Of a stretch of DNA of 38,700 bases, positions 1 through 8,621 are shown piece after piece. The notes below the pieces were generated by a model. It did not search any database. It saw only the letters and a program-made list of their open reading frames with translations, and was not told where the DNA came from. Origin of the DNA: Methanomicrobiales archaeon. Its GTDB lineage: Archaea > Halobacteriota > Methanomicrobia > Methanomicrobiales > Methanospirillaceae. The DNA lies in the NCBI GenBank assembly GCA_025350045.1, contig JANXYM010000011.1, forward strand, positions 1 through 38,700, written 5' to 3'. Position 1 is the first letter of the stretch, and each line of letters starts with the position of its first letter. The position numbers and the translations under genes are program-made.

Positions 1-813
1 ACCCCTCCCCCGCCTCCCCCCGAGCCCCCCAAGACCACGGACGAGGAACGCCGGCAGATCGAAGAAGCCCTGGCAGCGATGAAAAAACAGAAAGCCGATA
101 TGCTTGCAGCAGCCGCAGCGGCAAAAGAAAAGGCAGCTGCCGCTGCCGCAGCAGCACAGGCCCATGCCCAGGGGATTGATCTCCTGACCGGAAAGAAGAT
201 ACTGACTCCTGAACAGCTGAAACGCAAAGCGGAAATTCTGGCGGAGATGGCACTTAACCAGGCAGAATCGCAGCGCTGGACTGCTTATTCAAACACGCTC
301 GACACGGCGGTAACCGTCCTGACTGCCGTTGAAAAAAGTGCAGATATTGCCATAGATATCGGCTCCACGCTTTCCCCGGGTGCCGGGGGACGTATCAAGA
401 ATATCTATGCAGTAACAAAAACCGTCAGTAAAAATATGAGCCAGAGCTTTGCTGAAGGCAAGGGTCTGATGGAAGGGTTTAAAGGCGGGGTTGTCGAAGC
501 GGCAACGGACAAGGCGCTTGACCTGTTCGCCGGCCAGGTAACCGATAAGTTCAAGGGAAAGATTCCCGGCTTTGGGAAGTTTGATACGCATTCCAATGAT
601 CTGGGTGATTTGAGCTTAGGACAGATACGGGATCGCCTGAGCAAATCGGCAGTCCCCGATTCGGGAGACATTGTTCAGGATCTCCGCAATATCATGAAGA
701 ACTCGGATGCCCAGCGGGCATTGAGCAATTCGCTGAAGAATGCAACGCAGGGACAGGTCCAGGGCACTGTTCTCTGGGATCCGTTCAAGAAAGGAATTGG
801 AGTAACGAAATAA
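1..813 (+). CDS. 3' part of a proline-rich / helical protein (5' end outside window)
   Basis: The frame is open from the first base, so the gene starts upstream of the window. The first methionine, at base 79, is internal. The visible part opens with a proline-rich stretch (TPPPPPPEPPK). A charged Ala/Lys/Glu-rich helix follows that looks like a coiled coil (long alanine runs around bases 100-170), then a mixed helical domain of about 180 residues ending in WDPFKKGIGVTK. No membrane segment is seen in this part. The proline-linker-then-helical-tail layout matches the protein at 2125-4005, which also precedes a zinc-ribbon-tailed gene. I infer this is the first copy of a duplicated two-gene cassette, although the helical tails are not clearly alike in sequence. 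The stop is 17 bases before the next gene, so the two are probably cotranscribed. Function unknown. Confidence 0.8.
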   Translation, partial: TPPPPPPEPPKTTDEERRQIEEALAAMKKQKADMLAAAAAAKEKAAAAAAAAQAHAQGIDLLTGKKILTPEQLKRKAEILAEMALNQAESQRWTAYSNTLDTAVTVLTAVEKSADIAIDIGSTLSPGAGGRIKNIYAVTKTVSKNMSQSFAEGKGLMEGFKGGVVEAATDKALDLFAGQVTDKFKGKIPGFGKFDTHSNDLGDLSLGQIRDRLSKSAVPDSGDIVQDLRNIMKNSDAQRALSNSLKNATQGQVQGTVLWDPFKKGIGVTK

Positions 814-830
814 AACAGGGATGAAGAATA

Positions 831-1925
831 ATGACCGCGCAGATACAATTTACCGTCAAACCCGAGTTTCTTGGTATTCTGGGAACGCTTTCTCACAAAA
901 CTGTCAGTAGTATCTCTCCGTTCAATTACAAAACAGGAACAACGGACGGAAAAGCAGAGATTGGACAACTAATGGCACTGGAGGTATGCGATGCACAGGG
1001 AGCGATCAGGGCCGACAAGCTGGCAGCCGTTCAGGCACTTGCCACTGCTGAGGCGTTTACCCGGATTTACCTGACCACTCCCCAGGGAGTCATCGAATAC
1101 ATCGCCTATTTTGCTCCCGACGGAACGATAGCGGGAGTGACCAATGACAGCGGTATGCAGCTGGTCAGTTATCCTGCCACAAACGATGCCATGCTCGAAC
1201 TGGTCCGGCAGACCCTGGGATTCTCTCTCTATAAAAACGGGTCCTTTGATGCTCACCTGACCCGGGCAGAGACTCTTGTACTGGCAGCGATGATTGATCT
1301 CCAGCGAAAGGAGATGCTGCATAAATTTGCCGATGGCATGACTGCCGAACGTCTGGTTCATACCCCGCAGGCAATCTCCGGCATGCTGGCTGCTCCTCCG
1401 GGAAATTTCCAGTGGCTGTCCAGCGCATTTGTCGATCTCTTTACTCCGGAGCGTATTCCAAAAACGGATGCATTGAAAAGTATTCTTGAAGGCCTTGTTG
1501 CCAAAAAGTTTGCAGTCCGCGGGAACAACGGATATACCCTGTCCGATGACTGCGTCCTGCTCTCCCGCGGCCACCTGATGCCGTCAATGTACCTGACCCT
1601 GACTGCAGGAAAAGCCACCACGTCCGGCACAACCAATGCGGCTGGATTTTCCTGTATCATCAGCGGGATCCATGACCTGCTCTTTATCGATTACCAGGCC
1701 GACGCAGTCGAGCTGCAGACCGTTGCATCTGCAGAAATTCATGATTATGTCTCGGCATTTCTCACCAACCCTTCAGTGCTGGATGGACTTCTGGGACTGA
1801 CCGCACAAAAAGCATCAGCGCCTGCCGCCCCGGGAGTACCGGGCAAAAAATTCTGCCAACAGTGCGGGGAACTGTTAAAACCGGGGCTGAAATTCTGCAG
1901 CAGTTGCGGTGCAAAAGTTGTATAA
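831..1925 (+). CDS. Zinc-ribbon-tailed protein of unknown function (copy 1)
   Basis: A 364-residue soluble protein with no signal peptide or membrane helix. The last 25 residues form a zinc ribbon with two CxxC knuckles (FCQQCG and FCSSCG) spaced as in the small zinc ribbons of archaeal membrane and regulatory proteins. A segment around residues 215-250 (LKSILEGLVAKKFAVRGN...) has the look of a winged helix. The protein is a distant paralog of the product of 4006-5103. Both are about 365 residues long, both have a helical stretch followed by a GNGY / GNNGYxLS motif, a strand-rich block, and then a C-terminal zinc ribbon. The start ATG follows the upstream proline-rich gene by 17 bases. I do not recognise the main domain. 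An adaptor or assembly role for the neighbouring membrane protein is only a guess. Confidence 0.85.
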   Translation: MTAQIQFTVKPEFLGILGTLSHKTVSSISPFNYKTGTTDGKAEIGQLMALEVCDAQGAIRADKLAAVQALATAEAFTRIYLTTPQGVIEYIAYFAPDGTIAGVTNDSGMQLVSYPATNDAMLELVRQTLGFSLYKNGSFDAHLTRAETLVLAAMIDLQRKEMLHKFADGMTAERLVHTPQAISGMLAAPPGNFQWLSSAFVDLFTPERIPKTDALKSILEGLVAKKFAVRGNNGYTLSDDCVLLSRGHLMPSMYLTLTAGKATTSGTTNAAGFSCIISGIHDLLFIDYQADAVELQTVASAEIHDYVSAFLTNPSVLDGLLGLTAQKASAPAAPGVPGKKFCQQCGELLKPGLKFCSSCGAKVV

Positions 1926-2124
1926 CCCTCGGGTAATCCGGTGAAATAACCCATCAACGGGATTTCCGGCTCTCCTTTTTCTCCCCTCTTTTTTATTCCT
2001 GCCCTTCCATTGTACACCTTTTATGAACAATTCAGCACTCTCAAATATGTTCACAATGAATAAAACAGAATAGTAATATTTTTCCTCTTTGCGGGAAACA
2101 AAAAAAAGTACGGAATGTTTTACC

Positions 2125-4005
2125 ATGGATTTTAACGAGGCTGAACAGAGACGGGTACTATTCTTAACCCGGTTACGATCGGGCCAGCTCACTCCGGTCC
2201 AGTTTGCCAAGGCCCTGACCAGCCTGCAAGTGACGGATGGCCGGGGAACGATCTGGCAGCCCAACCCTTCCGGGGAAGGCTGGATATTCTGGACCGGTTC
2301 CGTGTGGCAGCCGGGGACGCTCCCCGCGATCTCCGGACCGGGCACAGCAGCAGGAACCAGTGGCCAGAAATCAGCCAAGGATTTCAACGAGTTCAAATCT
2401 TCTCTGATGACCGTGGATGAGTTCAAGAAGATGTCCAAGGATGTCCCGCTTGCAAAGCGGCCGCAGAAATGGTGGGATCTCCTCTCCATCCTTGGCGGGG
2501 TTGTTGCTGCTATCATCTGGTTCCTCTACGGGGGAATCCGGAGTGGGCGTGAAGGATTTGACCTCATCACCCCGCTCCTTATGATTGCAATTCCGGTCAT
2601 CCTCGTATGGTTCAGGGCAGATATCGATCAGATCCTCCTTCCCCTCCAGCCACCCCGGAAAAAGATCCCGCGGCTTATTCTTATCGGGCTGGGTATCGCT
2701 GTCCCCTTTGTTACCGCCTGGATCCTCTATAATCTTGTGCATATCAGCCAGTACCCCCTGATGCAGGCAAATCTGGTAATCGGGGTTATGGCTTCCTATG
2801 CACTGGTTCGCGATCCCGTGCCGGCAAAGGGAAACTCCCCCCGGAATTCAGGACCCCTTTCACCGTCATCGGTCGGCATTATTTTCTTTGTCATGCTGGC
2901 ATCGCTGCTGGCCATCCCGGTCATGGCCGATGACTGTTCCCGGGATGTCCTGAATGCCCAGGACTGCCTCCGGACCAACGGGTTTGCAGAGACCATGGCC
3001 GGTGCAACGGCTGCCGGTCTTGGTGTTCTCGTAAATGGCCCGATTATCCTTGGCGGGATTCTTTCCGGTGGATCCGGCGCTGCCGGTGGTGCCGGAGGAG
3101 CAGGGAGCGGTGCCGGATCTGGTGGATCTTCCGGTGGATCAGGCAAAATGTACGGTACCGGGACAAAGGGTGATCCGTTCCGCGATGGCAATACATTGGG
3201 AGAAGTCGGCCCGGACGGGAAGTTTGTCCCCTATGCTGAAAATGCCAACCTGCCCCCGAGAGTCTATGGCGACGGGACCTCGTCGACTCCCTACTCGAAT
3301 TCACAACAGCCCGTGTACGATCCTTCACCTACTCCCCCGGATGTACCGCCTCAGCCGCCGGAAGCCCCGGTTCCGCCACCTGAACCTCCGGTTCCACCAG
3401 TACCCCCAGTGCCTCCGGTACCTCCGGTTCCACCAGTACCCCCAGTGCCTCCGGTTCCACCAGTACCCCCAGTGCCTCCGGTTCCACCAGTACCCCCAGT
3501 GCCTCCGGTACCTCCGGTTCAACCGGTACCCCCCGTGCCTCCAGGCCTCACTCCCTTTGAGCGGCAGTGGTGGATGGACAAGCGTGACCGTATTGACGAT
3601 GCTCTGGGAGCATTAAGAGCCCAGCGGCAGCACAAGAAATGGCTGGAAAATACCGGGGTACCAAACGCACTGAAAGTGAGGACCGCCCAATGGCTGCGTG
3701 CAGCATTCAAAGGGGGAAAAGACTCGGTTGAAGCCATCACGGATCCCAAGGGCAAACTATGGGATGGTACGAAAAAGAAACTGGGCATTGAGACCCCGCT
3801 TGACAAAGCCAAGGATAAAATATTCGGCAAAGATGTTGAGATGAACGAGGTTATCAAGGATTTCAAGGAAGCCGATGAAAAATACCGTTCATTAAAAAGC
3901 GAACTCGATAGTATGCCAAGTGAAGAAGACATGGCGCAGACTTTCCGCGATCTCCTTCACCAGGCTGCCGAGGCCAACGGTAAGCTTCAGGCAGGAGGAA
4001 AATAA
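2125..4005 (+). CDS. Multi-pass membrane protein with glycine-rich, VPP-repeat and helical tail regions
   Basis: The ATG at 2125 is preferred over an upstream TTG at 2089, because it begins a conserved-looking N-terminal module and gives 626 residues. Residues 1-70 resemble a module common in bacterial and archaeal envelope proteins (LRSGQLTPVQF, then DGRGTIWQPNP, then GWIFWTGSVWQPG), seen here as paired aromatic/Gly motifs. About five or six hydrophobic segments follow (roughly residues 117-140, 146-165, 184-207, 213-230, 248-268 and 288-312). After VMADDC there are two cysteines, then a Gly/Ser-rich stretch (310-345), a VPP-repeat linker (about 397-475) and a charged helical tail (476-626). 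The next gene begins directly after this stop, which implies translational coupling. It could be a surface-anchored scaffold, but the function is unknown. Confidence 0.85.
   Translation: MDFNEAEQRRVLFLTRLRSGQLTPVQFAKALTSLQVTDGRGTIWQPNPSGEGWIFWTGSVWQPGTLPAISGPGTAAGTSGQKSAKDFNEFKSSLMTVDEFKKMSKDVPLAKRPQKWWDLLSILGGVVAAIIWFLYGGIRSGREGFDLITPLLMIAIPVILVWFRADIDQILLPLQPPRKKIPRLILIGLGIAVPFVTAWILYNLVHISQYPLMQANLVIGVMASYALVRDPVPAKGNSPRNSGPLSPSSVGIIFFVMLASLLAIPVMADDCSRDVLNAQDCLRTNGFAETMAGATAAGLGVLVNGPIILGGILSGGSGAAGGAGGAGSGAGSGGSSGGSGKMYGTGTKGDPFRDGNTLGEVGPDGKFVPYAENANLPPRVYGDGTSSTPYSNSQQPVYDPSPTPPDVPPQPPEAPVPPPEPPVPPVPPVPPVPPVPPVPPVPPVPPVPPVPPVPPVPPVPPVPPVQPVPPVPPGLTPFERQWWMDKRDRIDDALGALRAQRQHKKWLENTGVPNALKVRTAQWLRAAFKGGKDSVEAITDPKGKLWDGTKKKLGIETPLDKAKDKIFGKDVEMNEVIKDFKEADEKYRSLKSELDSMPSEEDMAQTFRDLLHQAAEANGKLQAGGK
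3391..3543 (+). repeat. 27-bp in-frame tandem repeat encoding VPP triplets
   Basis: Four identical 27-bp units occupy 3391-3417, 3427-3453, 3454-3480 and 3481-3507. Units 1 and 2 are separated by a 9-bp spacer that encodes VPP. After unit 4 comes another 9-bp spacer and a degenerate fifth unit at 3517-3543. All units keep the reading frame and encode VPPVPPVPP. The near-perfect nucleotide identity, with no synonymous drift, indicates recent slippage or recombination, so the linker length is probably variable between strains. Confidence 0.95.
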
Positions 4006-5103
4006 ATGGCAGGATTTGGTTTGAAAAGCGAATATATACCCCAGCTTGGCATTCTCTGGCCGGGGACAAGGACCCCACTCACACCCCTCCTTCCGCCCGG
4101 AAACCCGCAGGAACAGGATCAAATACGAACCGTGCTTGGTCCTGCCGGACTGCTTGACAGCACCGGAACAATCGGATCCCCCTGCCATACGGCGATGAAA
4201 GTTCTCGCTGCCCCGTCACGGCTGATCACCGCGGATTTCATGCGACCCGATTATTTTCATATGGTCACGAGATATTTCTCAAAGGACGTTGAAAATACCT
4301 TTACCCATATCGTAGATGAGAGCGGGTACGGACAGGGTTTCACCATACTTACTCTGCAGGATCTCATTGCAGTATGTGATCTCGAAGATCCGGTAAGCAA
4401 CATGGCTGCTGTACCGGTTGATCTGGCACTCGAAGAAACAGAAGCACAGCTCCTTGCTGCACTCCTTGACAGCGAAAGGATCTCAGCACGCAATGCCATT
4501 GCAGGTTCAGCGGACCCGGGCAATCTGTCCATCTTCCCTGCGGTCCAGACCCCGTCAAGCGCTGCGGCTTGTTTCTCAACCGCTACTGAACAACCGGGGG
4601 ATTATGTGTTTCTCGGGCTCCTGAACAGCGGTCACGATATCGGGAAGACGAGTAGTACCGTACCCGGTGAGAAGGATTTTTTGGCTCTTATCAATAATGG
4701 GCTTATCAGGCAATCGGGTAACGGGTATGAACTTTCGGAATCACTGCTTTTCATGGCGAGGAGGACTGTATTTATCGATATGGCTGTCACAATCAGCATC
4801 AGATATATTGATACTACTGGCTCCATTCACGCTGAATCGGCGCAATGTATTCGTGCTGATGGCACATTGCTATGGTTTATCAGGCCCCCACAGGCACCGG
4901 GCACGATTCTCCTGAAATACGTACCCTCCAGCCGGTTCGGGGAGATCCTGCAATCCCTGTTCGGGGACGAATCGTATTCATTGTCAGGAATGATCGTTCC
5001 GGCTGCCGAAACGAAACCAAAAACCCGGTTCTGCCCCCAATGTGGTGCAGAGCATCGCGCCGAAGCAATTTTCTGCAATCAATGCGGATACAGATTTACC
5101 TGA
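4006..5103 (+). CDS. Zinc-ribbon-tailed protein of unknown function (copy 2)
   Basis: A 365-residue protein whose ATG immediately follows the TAA of the membrane protein gene, so the two are almost certainly coexpressed. The C-terminus is a zinc ribbon (FCPQCG ... FCNQCG). Comparison with the product of 831-1925 shows the same length and the same order of elements. A helical block (LEETEAQLLAALLDSERISA) corresponds to LTRAETLVLAAMIDLQRKEM of copy 1. A winged-helix-like piece ending GNGYELSES corresponds to NNGYTLSDD. Both then have a strand-rich part and the ribbon. Sequence identity is low, so the duplication is old. No membrane segment or export signal is visible, so the protein is probably cytoplasmic. 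Function unknown. Confidence 0.85.
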   Translation: MAGFGLKSEYIPQLGILWPGTRTPLTPLLPPGNPQEQDQIRTVLGPAGLLDSTGTIGSPCHTAMKVLAAPSRLITADFMRPDYFHMVTRYFSKDVENTFTHIVDESGYGQGFTILTLQDLIAVCDLEDPVSNMAAVPVDLALEETEAQLLAALLDSERISARNAIAGSADPGNLSIFPAVQTPSSAAACFSTATEQPGDYVFLGLLNSGHDIGKTSSTVPGEKDFLALINNGLIRQSGNGYELSESLLFMARRTVFIDMAVTISIRYIDTTGSIHAESAQCIRADGTLLWFIRPPQAPGTILLKYVPSSRFGEILQSLFGDESYSLSGMIVPAAETKPKTRFCPQCGAEHRAEAIFCNQCGYRFT

Positions 5104-5115
5104 TTGAGGCTAGTC

Positions 5116-6054
5116 ATGGTCAACACTTCATCATCTGATATGGGAAACAGAACCTGCCCAAAGTGCGGTAGTCCGCTTACCCCGGGCCTGAAGTTCTGTG
5201 AATCGTGTGGAGCCAAAGTTGAGCAACCCGCTGTCTGCGTACAGTGCAGCGCCCCGCTTCTCCCGAATGCAAAGTTCTGTGAAACCTGCGGAAAACCCGT
5301 AGCAAGAGCGGCCACCCCGGCTTCTGCTGTACCTCCCGCCCCGGCTCCGGAAGTGATCAAAACACCTCCTGCGGCTGAACCCCCGGCAGCCGCGCCTGCA
5401 CCCGCAGAAGTAAAAAAGCCGGCACCGAAGCCCGGACCGGCAGCTGCCCCCGGCGGGAAAGTTCCTGAATTAAAAATACCGGAGAAACCCAAGGTACCGG
5501 TACAAAAACCCCCGGGGAAAGCACCCGCATCCCGCACCCAGACCCTGGTGATCGCCGGCGTCGTGGGACTCGTTATTGTCGCAGCCCTTGCGTACTTTGT
5601 GCTCCTGCCCATGCTCTCCTCCGGATCAGGAACCCCCGCAGCAGGGAACAGTGCTCCCGTATTTGGGGCCAGTCCCACCCCGACCGTTTCATCAGCAACG
5701 GGCACCCCGGCCACGGATGCCTCATCCGTATCGTTTGTTACGGAACCCACCCGGGTGCCTCCGGCAACCCTTCTCGTTAATTACGAGGCTGCACGCGACC
5801 CGATCACCGGCCTGGTAACCGTGACGTTCAGGGGAGGTACCGGCCAGTATGGTGTTTCTGATGTAGCGATCCGGCTTACGCGATCCGATGGCCAGGTGCA
5901 GACCCAGACCTTCAAGCCTAAGGAGATTGGGAGTTCTACTACTCTGCCGGGAACCCTGATGACCGACCGCATTGAAGTTGTCGCAAATTATTACAACGGG
6001 GAAAAATACCGGATCATCGACCAGCTGTTCGAATATAAGAAGAAAAATTTCTGA
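5116..6054 (+). CDS. Double-zinc-ribbon, single-pass membrane protein
   Basis: The start at ATG 5116 is preferred over TTG 5104, because a GAGG Shine-Dalgarno-like site (5106-5109) sits six bases upstream of it. The product has 312 residues. The N-terminus holds two consecutive zinc ribbons (CPKCG/CESCG, then CVQCS/CETCG), followed by a Pro/Ala/Lys-rich linker of about 70 residues. A single hydrophobic helix lies near residues 142-168 (TLVIAGVVGLVIVAALAYFV). A Thr/Ser-rich spacer and a strand-rich domain of about 100 residues, presumably outside the cell, complete it. Zinc ribbons inside and a sensor-like domain outside is a common archaeal membrane architecture. It is the last gene of the 1-6054 run and shares the ribbon type with the two preceding soluble proteins, so a common partner is plausible. 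Confidence 0.85.
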   Translation: MVNTSSSDMGNRTCPKCGSPLTPGLKFCESCGAKVEQPAVCVQCSAPLLPNAKFCETCGKPVARAATPASAVPPAPAPEVIKTPPAAEPPAAAPAPAEVKKPAPKPGPAAAPGGKVPELKIPEKPKVPVQKPPGKAPASRTQTLVIAGVVGLVIVAALAYFVLLPMLSSGSGTPAAGNSAPVFGASPTPTVSSATGTPATDASSVSFVTEPTRVPPATLLVNYEAARDPITGLVTVTFRGGTGQYGVSDVAIRLTRSDGQVQTQTFKPKEIGSSTTLPGTLMTDRIEVVANYYNGEKYRIIDQLFEYKKKNF

Positions 6055-6372: not shown

Positions 6373-7506
6373 TCAGATCTGCTTGAGTTCCGCAACCTTG
6401 AGAATATCTGTCCGGGTCACAATCCCGAGAATCTTCCCGTCCACCACGACCGGTATCCTGCCGAAATCCTGTGCTGACATGATCCGGAGTGCATCGATCA
6501 CCGGCGCTTCCGGGGGGAGCGTGATTAAGTCCCGGGTCATGATATCGCGCACCTGCATGGCCTCGCGGTCAATGGATGACATCCGGTTCACATCTGCAAG
6601 GGTGACCATGCCAACCAGGGTGTCCCGCTCGACGACCGGAAACCCGAGATGCTTGCTGGAATACATCATGCCAATGACCGTGCTCAACGGCATGGTCGGC
6701 GGAACGGTGATGACCGGTTTGCTCATCATCTCTCCCACGGTCACATTCTGCAGCAGCTGGCTGTACTTCACCGCTGTTGACTCTGTGTTTGCACCGATGT
6801 AGATGAAGAGCGCAATCAGGATAAGGAACGGCGAGAAGGTAAAGAGCCCGATGATGCCAAAGATGATCGCAAAACCTTTCCCGATATCAGCGGCAATTTT
6901 TGTAGCCCTGTGGAGTGGCATCCTCGTTGCCAGCCAGGCCCGGAGCACCCTGCCGCCATCCATGGGAAATGCCGGTATGAGATTGAAGAGGCACAGGATG
7001 ATATTGAGCATGCCGAGATATCCCCAGACAAAGATCCATGCCCCCTGCTGGCCCGGGTCAGCGGTTACCGATGGCGCAGCATACACGAGCCCGCAGCATA
7101 CGAGCCCGAGAACGAGACTCGCAAGCGGCCCTACAAAGGCCATAGGAAGTTCAACTTTGGGATCCGGAGTCCCCTCTTCCATCTCTGCGATACCCCCGAA
7201 GATCATCAGCGTGATGCTGTTGATCCTGATCCCCTTACGCGACGCTACGATTGAGTGGGCAAGCTCGTGGACGAGGACCCCGGCAAAGAGCCCGAGAGCG
7301 ACAACAACTCCCAGGATCCATGGCATGTACCCGCTGGCGATGAATGACGTATCGATCGGTACTGCAAAGATATTCGTAAGCACTCCTGCCGTGAGCAGGA
7401 TCTCGCTGCCGATGATCCAGGCAAAGAGCGGTATAACTAACAGGAATGTATAATGAATCAGGATCGGAATCCCGAATAAGCGTCCAATTCTGAATGATCC
7501 GTCCAT
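6373..7506 (-). CDS. Site-2 protease family zinc metalloprotease with CBS pair
   Basis: A 377-residue intramembrane metalloprotease of the S2P / SpoIVFB type. The zinc-binding motif HELAH lies at residues 80-84 inside a transmembrane helix. The third ligand region, NLIPAFPMDGGRVLRAWLA, has the aspartate at residue 183. About six hydrophobic helices cover residues 12-245. The C-terminal 120 residues are two CBS domains (VGEMMSKPVITVPP... and VRDIMTRDLITLPP...), which bind adenosyl ligands in other proteins and probably gate activity. This fusion is a standard form (M50 family with CBS). It cleaves transmembrane substrates within the bilayer; the substrate here is unknown. The gene is divergent from the PRC-barrel gene, with only 50 bases between the starts, so the two share a promoter region. 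Confidence 0.95.
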   Translation of the reverse strand: MDGSFRIGRLFGIPILIHYTFLLVIPLFAWIIGSEILLTAGVLTNIFAVPIDTSFIASGYMPWILGVVVALGLFAGVLVHELAHSIVASRKGIRINSITLMIFGGIAEMEEGTPDPKVELPMAFVGPLASLVLGLVCCGLVYAAPSVTADPGQQGAWIFVWGYLGMLNIILCLFNLIPAFPMDGGRVLRAWLATRMPLHRATKIAADIGKGFAIIFGIIGLFTFSPFLILIALFIYIGANTESTAVKYSQLLQNVTVGEMMSKPVITVPPTMPLSTVIGMMYSSKHLGFPVVERDTLVGMVTLADVNRMSSIDREAMQVRDIMTRDLITLPPEAPVIDALRIMSAQDFGRIPVVVDGKILGIVTRTDILKVAELKQI

Positions 7507-7556
7507 CTGAAAGGATTATCTTTTTAACTCTTAAGTATATACTCTCTCTGATAACG
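7507..7556. promoter_or_regulatory. Shared divergent promoter interval
   Basis: This 50-bp gap separates the divergent protease and PRC-barrel genes. It is AT-rich, with a T-rich stretch at 7520-7528 and a TATA-like tract (TTAAGTATATA, 7531-7541). The TATA position relative to the plus-strand ATG would imply a very short or absent leader. The exact elements are uncertain. Confidence 0.35.
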
Positions 7557-7823
7557 ATGGAAACCCAGATTACCGATTTGTTCGGACTCCAGATCTATAC
7601 CGATAAGGGTATGTTTGTCGGCGAAGTCGAGGATGTTGTCATCGATGTGGACAACAAGAAGATGGAAGGTCTCGTGGTCGGCAAAGTCAACGACCAGCTC
7701 TTTGAGCTCAAGAACTTCAAGGGACTCAAGATCCCGTACCGTATCATCAGCGCTATCGATGATATCGTCCTGATCCGCCACCTGCCCGGCGCATTTGCCG
7801 GCTCCGGTAGCGGGGACGAGTAA
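7557..7823 (+). CDS. PRC-barrel domain protein
   Basis: The start is placed at ATG 7557 (METQITDLFGLQIYTDKG). The in-frame ATG at 7494 would overlap the divergent protease gene and add a tail foreign to the family. The 88-residue product is a single PRC-barrel domain: a first strand GLQIYTDKGMFVGEVEDVV, then EGLVVGKV, then IPYRIISAIDDIVLI. It resembles the small archaeal stand-alone PRC-barrel proteins, which are related to the RNA-binding barrel of the ribosome maturation factor RimM and to photosynthetic reaction-centre subunit H. Archaeal members have been linked to RNA metabolism and cell division (CdpB family). Which role applies here cannot be told from the sequence. The protein is short, acidic at the C-terminus (SGSGDE) and has no membrane segment. 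Confidence 0.9.
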   Translation: METQITDLFGLQIYTDKGMFVGEVEDVVIDVDNKKMEGLVVGKVNDQLFELKNFKGLKIPYRIISAIDDIVLIRHLPGAFAGSGSGDE

Positions 7824-7889
7824 CGAACGGATAAAAACTGCGGTACAACCCGCATATCACATTTTCTCTTAATCCCGCAGGCTCTCTTT

Positions 7890-8621
7890 ATGGAAAACCG
7901 GGAACTCTTTTCCAATCTTACCACCATTCCCCCGATTTTCGTCCGGCTTGACGGGCGGGCATTTCACCGGCTGACAGAAACCCTCGGTCTTGAAAAACCG
8001 TTCGATGATTTCTTCAATACTTCGATGTGCATGGTCTGTTCATCCCTGCTGGCGGAGAGCGGCCTGAATCCCGATTTTGCGTTTACGTTCTCCGATGAGA
8101 TCAGCCTGTATTTCACCCAGCTGCCGTTCAGCGGGAGGGTGGAGAAGATCGATTCCGTGGCGGCATCGTTTGCTGCAAGCTCGCTCACCCTTGCCCTGGG
8201 GGGCACCTCGCTGCTCTCCTTTGATGCCCGGGTGATCCCGGCAACCCCGGCCTTTGCCATGGAGTACCTGGCAAACCGGCAGAACGAGGCGTGGCGCAAC
8301 CATATCAACGGCTACTGCCAGCAGGTGTTGATCGAAGAAGGGATGAACGGGAAGAAAGCCGCCGAGCATCTCAAGGGCCTGCCCTCAAAAGCACTCCACG
8401 ATATGATGCACGTGCGGGGCTTCAATCTCGCCATGACACCGGCATGGCAGCGCCGGGGTGTACTGGTGTTCAAGAAGCTCACCGAGAAAGAGGGGTACAA
8501 TCCTATCACTCATGAGACCGTTGTGGCGGAGCGGAGTGCCGTTACGGTCGAGAAGGATCTCCCGCTGTTTACGAGTGATGAAGGGAAAGAGTTCCTGAGG
8601 CAGCTGGTGTGCGGGTTGTGA
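7890..8621 (+). CDS. tRNA(His) guanylyltransferase / Thg1-like 3'-5' polymerase
   Basis: A 243-residue member of the Thg1 superfamily, which adds nucleotides in the reverse (3'-to-5') direction. Eukaryotic Thg1 adds G-1 to tRNA-His. Archaeal and bacterial Thg1-like enzymes also repair 5'-truncated tRNAs in a template-dependent way. The metal-binding residues are visible: VRLDGRAFHRL with Asp21, and FTFSDEISLYF with Asp69-Glu70. The HIN motif (NHINGYCQQVL) and the conserved RGxxL / KKL region near the C-terminus are also present. The length is normal for the family. The ATG at 7890 fits the family N-terminus (FVRLDGR about 18 residues in). It follows the PRC-barrel gene by 66 bases on the same strand, so cotranscription is possible. 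Whether it is a true G-1 adder or a repair enzyme is not decidable here. Confidence 0.93.
   Translation: MENRELFSNLTTIPPIFVRLDGRAFHRLTETLGLEKPFDDFFNTSMCMVCSSLLAESGLNPDFAFTFSDEISLYFTQLPFSGRVEKIDSVAASFAASSLTLALGGTSLLSFDARVIPATPAFAMEYLANRQNEAWRNHINGYCQQVLIEEGMNGKKAAEHLKGLPSKALHDMMHVRGFNLAMTPAWQRRGVLVFKKLTEKEGYNPITHETVVAERSAVTVEKDLPLFTSDEGKEFLRQLVCGL

Follow-up and report, generated by a model that had tools for sequence, protein, structure and literature searches.

EspG proteins are chaperones of type VII secretion which cap the tips of helical hairpins. They direct their clients to secretion, and the EspG-related chaperones EsaE, TscG and TshG have, like the proteins described here, been recognised mostly by structure or weak homology; they differ from the latter in that all of them lie in type VII loci of Gram-positive bacteria (PMC11217815). 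Polymorphic toxin systems combine a conserved N-terminus, an exchangeable C-terminus and a cognate downstream gene, and the VARTIG modules of Thermococcales are, according to the part of the source considered here, archaeal variable-module loci organised in a similar way (PMC8416519). In this paper we describe an operon of a Methanomicrobiales archaeon at positions 1-6054 of the window, i.e. the whole analysed stretch of 38,700 nucleotides (contig G000:C93, 1-38700; window position 1 is the contig edge). In this operon, membrane proteins with exchangeable helical tails (carriers) are each followed by a cognate partner protein with a predicted EspG fold. The EspG fold and polymorphic modules are both known kinds, but an operon of swappable tail-partner pairs is apparently undescribed; in the open-access literature no paper linking EspG to Methanoregula was found, and the phrase "EspG fold" occurred in one paper only.

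A preliminary description of this DNA had proposed two tandem pairs, each of a proline-rich protein and a zinc-ribbon-tailed protein of about 365 residues, closed by a double-zinc-ribbon membrane protein. Open reading frames (ORFs) and Pfam profiles bear this arrangement out, including the single C-terminal ribbons of the paired proteins and the double ribbon of the last one. The ribbon-tailed proteins are also old paralogs as suggested, being homologous over the full length (22% identity, E=9e-13; 25%, 7e-5 for the body without the ribbon). The proline-rich members are not soluble: B and its relatives are membrane proteins with about 5-6 transmembrane (TM) segments and a conserved N-terminal domain. 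All genes of the region are nearly contiguous on the + strand, and a GGAG stretch resembling a ribosome binding site lies 5' of several partner genes. The features are as follows.

1-813, +: C-terminal part of membrane protein A (end of the proline linker and type-1 helical tail), cut at its 5' end by the contig edge; assigned by tail homology and the TM N-termini of relatives
831-1925, +: EspG-fold protein A with C-terminal zinc ribbon, 364 residues; assigned by AlphaFold2 (AF2) model, Foldseek and VIA
1851-1919, +: zinc ribbon of protein A; PF13240 at residues 341-363, E 2.7e-5, slightly below the cut-off
2125-4005, +: membrane protein B with WxPxPxxxGW N-terminal domain, 5-6 probable TM segments, ADDC..LNAQDC loop, Gly/Pro linker and type-2 tail; assigned by alignment, hydropathy and charge; the ORF opens at TTG 2089 (638 residues), relatives favour ATG 2125 (626 residues)
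2482-3063, +: membrane domain of B; five hydropathy peaks, residues 120-313
3375-3544, +: tandem-repeat DNA encoding the proline linker of B; Tandem Repeats Finder (TRF)
3544-4002, +: type-2 helical-hairpin tail of B with conserved tip; AF2 helices 4-57, 100-122 and 127-151 in a fused model
4006-5103, +: EspG-fold protein B with C-terminal zinc ribbon, 365 residues, its start adjoining the stop of membrane protein B; assigned by Foldseek and VIA
5026-5097, +: zinc ribbon of protein B; PF13240 at residues 342-363, E 5.3e-7
5116-6054, +: double-zinc-ribbon protein with one TM segment and a conserved, probably beta, C-terminal domain; PF12773 E 3.7e-11, alignment with seven relatives; the ORF opens at TTG 5104 (316 residues), the probable start is ATG 5116

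Predicted fold of the two paralogs

In their structural models both paralogs have the EspG fold, a feature which the preliminary description had not noticed and which came out of the structure prediction it had proposed. The AF2 model of protein A, based on 16 aligned relatives, reached a mean predicted local distance difference test (pLDDT) of 84.5 and a predicted template modelling score (pTM) of 0.76. The best 14 Foldseek matches of this model in the PDB are all EspG proteins (E 6.2e-10 to 3e-7), while the next, unrelated match follows at E 6e-3, and a second aligner (VIA) gave a Z of 13.4 for EspG versus 7.5 for the first unrelated chain. Protein B was modelled in a fusion, with tail B read through the TAA stop into partner B; again the best 14 Foldseek matches are all EspG (4l4w_B, E 4.9e-8), and VIA gave a Z of 11.9 versus 8.7 for the first unrelated chain. 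The similarity to EspG1, EspG3 and EspG5 spans about 230 aligned residues of the predicted models.

The likeness to these ESX proteins (PF14011) lies in the predicted fold and in a putative client that is modelled as a helical hairpin. They differ from the proteins described here, which are archaeal, carry a C-terminal zinc ribbon, have a membrane-anchored client and stay below the Pfam cut-off in sequence, and for which no type VII machinery was found: WXG100 (PF06013) and FtsK_SpoIIIE (PF01580) gave no match in searches of the own genome in which the controls did. Because this genome is 95.9% complete, the absence of type VII secretion is likely but not certain. Neither the plasmid searches nor the phage search gave a match to the EspG-fold body. 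The fold itself and the targeting role of EspG proteins (PMC11217815) would fit a chaperone of an unrecognised archaeal secretion route that hands its client over for export in the manner of type VII secretion. We consider this very improbable, as the genome has no match to the two core families and the client itself spans the membrane several times. In the literature reached, the EspG fold is linked to the type VII secretion of Gram-positive bacteria. Its occurrence in methanogens, with membrane-anchored clients and without detected type VII core families, suggests that the capping of hairpins is older or more widespread than secretion.

Cognate pairing of tails and partners

In total 16 full-length relatives of the EspG-fold proteins were collected from the own genome, Methanoregula and other Methanomicrobiales, and for 14 of them upstream DNA is visible. 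In each of these 14, a membrane/tail gene lies immediately before the EspG-fold gene. The tails form three groups without detectable similarity between them, and these groups match exactly three clades in the tree of the partners (supports 100/99, 95/94 and 100/100), for which the tree program warned of long branches, including within the B group. Tail A is homologous to the tails of G184a, G019 and G159, and more weakly to that of G222, whereas tails A and B show no detectable homology (best E 1.1).

The membrane part of the carriers does not follow this grouping. The N-terminal parts of membrane protein B and of G184a are 79% identical and their tails are unrelated, while the carriers of G139, G038 and G033 have a different membrane part, yet a type-2 tail. 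The pairing of tail and partner is well supported. The zinc ribbon is not present on every partner; it is absent from the ends of the G038 and G033 partners. The pairs are kept together in the neighbourhood survey, and the homologs are not mostly solitary or scattered over unrelated operons. The description as a duplicated cassette holds, but the pairs represent different cognate types and not one duplicated unit. The proposal of a membrane-associated system without a tie to a known function holds.

In the alignment, carrier B and its relatives have in common a WxPxPxxxGWxxWxGxxW domain at the N-terminus, an ADDC...LNAQDC loop and several TM segments; in B these are followed by a linker that a genuine DNA tandem repeat encodes (TRF). 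A simple hydropathy scan finds five peaks in B, and the loop at residues 203-249 may hold a sixth segment. The charges of the loops suggest that both N- and C-terminus of B are cytosolic. Of membrane protein A the window shows only the tail, the relatives carrying TM N-termini. The C34 relative (L029:11443-12915) consists of a signal peptide, an ectodomain and a single TM segment followed by a type-1 tail, a layout which places the tail in the cytosol. This carrier variant also has a weak match to SprB repeats.

We slightly favour the view that this is a modular membrane effector or receptor operon, in which a cytosolic partner with the modelled EspG fold pairs with and caps its cognate tail. 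In B, and by homology in A, a multi-spanning carrier with both ends in the cytosol would bear an exchangeable C-terminal module on a proline linker, and within the cytosol the product of the next gene downstream would bind the helical tail. This product would combine the EspG fold with a zinc ribbon, a part which most types of partner in the system possess. Most likely the partner would cap the conserved tip of its tail and so hold the tail in a soluble, inactive or unassembled state. The double-zinc-ribbon TM protein would serve as a shared accessory, and the input would probably come from a linked ATP-binding cassette (ABC) transporter/propeller unit. What the analysis shows is the predicted fold, the pairing of the genes, the covariation of tails and partners, the exchange of modules and the context of the operon. 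The fused model did not resolve the docking, and the capping is therefore inferred; so are the topology, the physical binding, the input role and the overall purpose.

The type-2 tail of B was modelled as a helical hairpin whose tip is its most conserved part, with 59% pairwise identity versus 29-37% in the helices. A fold comparison of the hairpin returned generic coiled-coil matches only, and a plasmid search with tail A gave no match.

Several points weigh against our reading. The tip of tail B was modelled poorly (pLDDT about 40-50 in the fused model), which would suit a conserved segment that folds on a partner, and the prediction of the tail-partner complex, also suggested in the preliminary description, yielded the hairpin but not its docking (pTM 0.63). 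The number of TM segments and the topology were derived from hydropathy and charge only. Moreover, recognition of EspG by sequence alone fails, with all matches below the cut-offs: the gathering score of PF14011 is 27 bits, and a match in a paralog, although colinear, reached 15.6 bits (E 0.013). Such sub-threshold matches (E 0.011-0.013) were found in only two of the 16 relatives and a PF14011 search of the own genome gave none, while in the comparison of a profile with PDB sequences EspG1 appeared at only E 0.52.

Other modules and the ABC transporter/propeller unit

The exchange of modules extends beyond EspG, with tails of other kinds borne by the same N-terminal membrane part. In Methanomicrobiales-3 (L082) a metallopeptidase-like domain (HEVKHQQQ) forms the end of the carrier, and the next gene encodes a 213-residue zinc-ribbon partner, which is unrelated to EspG-fold protein A by BLAST. 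A papain-like domain takes this place in PtaB.Bin085 (L083) and G156 (L119), where the zinc-ribbon partners that follow are small and homologous to each other. Both names are readings of motifs; no family model matched. The papain-like tails share H and D positions in two genera, and the putative catalytic Cys is apparently lost in one relative. Beyond the HExxH-like and His/Asp motifs, no named toxin domain was found in the tails of L082, L083 and L119. The L082 pair recurs on plasmid pAQ7 of Picosynechococcus PCC 7002 (carrier WP_012305594.1, tail 33.6% identity, E 2e-36; partner WP_012305595.1, 46%, 5e-29), where the N-terminal membrane part of the carrier is of another type and the genes follow in the order substrate-binding protein (SBP), permease, ATPase, propeller, carrier and zinc-ribbon partner. 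A plasmid search with a papain-like tail gave no match. Because the operon is common to Methanomicrobiales and to this genetically workable cyanobacterium, its role is directly testable.

Exchangeable C-termini behind conserved N-termini with the cognate gene directly downstream would also be expected if the C-terminal module were toxic and the zinc-ribbon protein encoded after it conferred immunity, the helical tails then being membrane-active or pre-toxin regions. The metallopeptidase-like HEVKH tail, which a cyanobacterial plasmid gene shares, and the common positions of the papain-like tails, whose partners are homologous, agree with this. However, no tail matches a named toxin family, the matches to known defence systems in PADLOC are weak and unconvincing, and the putative catalytic Cys of the papain-like tail is apparently lost in one relative. 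The tail is predicted to be cytosolic in the producing cell with no export route found, and the EspG fold is known for chaperones. A toxin-immunity function therefore seems rather unlikely to us, even if the system is possibly polymorphic-toxin-like. Compared with polymorphic toxin systems it differs by the membrane-embedded carrier, the predicted cytosolic tail, the lack of a recognised toxin domain and the conserved ABC/propeller linkage. The VARTIG modules are centred on a hypervariable immunoglobulin (Ig)-domain protein, and the part of the source considered mentions no zinc ribbons, EspG fold or ABC/propeller genes (PMC8416519). No Ig domain was found in the window proteins, the upstream part of protein A lying beyond the contig.

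The fuller operon, missed in the first account of this DNA, includes an ABC transporter and a propeller protein. The ABC unit (SBP, permease and ATPase; the SBP not seen in L083) and a Reg_prop propeller precede the carrier in the own contig C14, L082, L083, G039 and G125; the unit lies downstream in G139 and is partly seen upstream in G184. Within the order, propeller and carrier co-occur in 10 of the 13 propeller genomes out of 232 (hypergeometric p 8e-13), a value that ignores shared ancestry and in this respect also counts against our reading. The remaining three are G139, whose carrier is of another type, G179, which is cut off by a contig edge, and G202, in which a zinc-ribbon membrane protein comes next. 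In G145 carrier and propeller form one gene, fused through a further TM segment (L117:8436-10505).

This fusion, and the order of ABC genes, propeller and membrane protein conserved in archaea and a cyanobacterium, would suit a membrane sensor or signalling scaffold. In such a system a ligand would be perceived by the ABC binding protein and the propeller and relayed by the membrane protein, with the released zinc-ribbon partner acting as a messenger in the cytosol. We regard this as improbable, because several pairs, including G019 pair A and C34, have no ABC genes nearby and no output domain was recognised in the EspG-fold partner. A cross-domain conflict or sensing system, in which the ABC/propeller unit controls a multi-spanning carrier with exchangeable cytosolic effector tails, every one held by a zinc-ribbon partner of its own, and the EspG fold acts outside type VII secretion, appears possible, though we would not expect it. 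None of the single purposes (toxin-immunity, signalling or assembly) is rated as highly as pairing and capping.

Neighbouring genes and minor observations

On the 3' side of the region follow two genes which, judged by the appearance of their sequences, resemble a membrane protease of the site-2-protease type and an isoleucyl-tRNA synthetase. In G184 two pairs and the double-ribbon protein adjoin the same neighbours as in the window, which suggests that contig C14 could lie upstream of the window. A further cassette of the own genome is likewise broken within a proline repeat of this kind (contigs C14 end and C27 start), so that three contig ends in this genome lie inside carrier proline-repeat DNA: the end of C14 (L007), the start of C27 (L008) and window position 1.

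Matches to the N-terminal WxPxPxxxGW domain also occur, in several genomes, in other proteins that seem to be different (L120, G163:C1). The 1115-residue carrier of G147 (L118:8806-12153) has a C-terminal region that is long and rich in Asp and Gly, and ABC genes lie downstream of it. In G017 (L031) the double-ribbon gene (7160-8071) is kept beside a decayed EspG-fold gene (about 8333-8551) with an internal TAG. Finally, an ABC permease gene with a lost end is directly followed, in a genome from another order, by what is left of an EspG-fold gene, its C-terminal half (L081:8811-9104); this locus looks like a deletion remnant of the operon.
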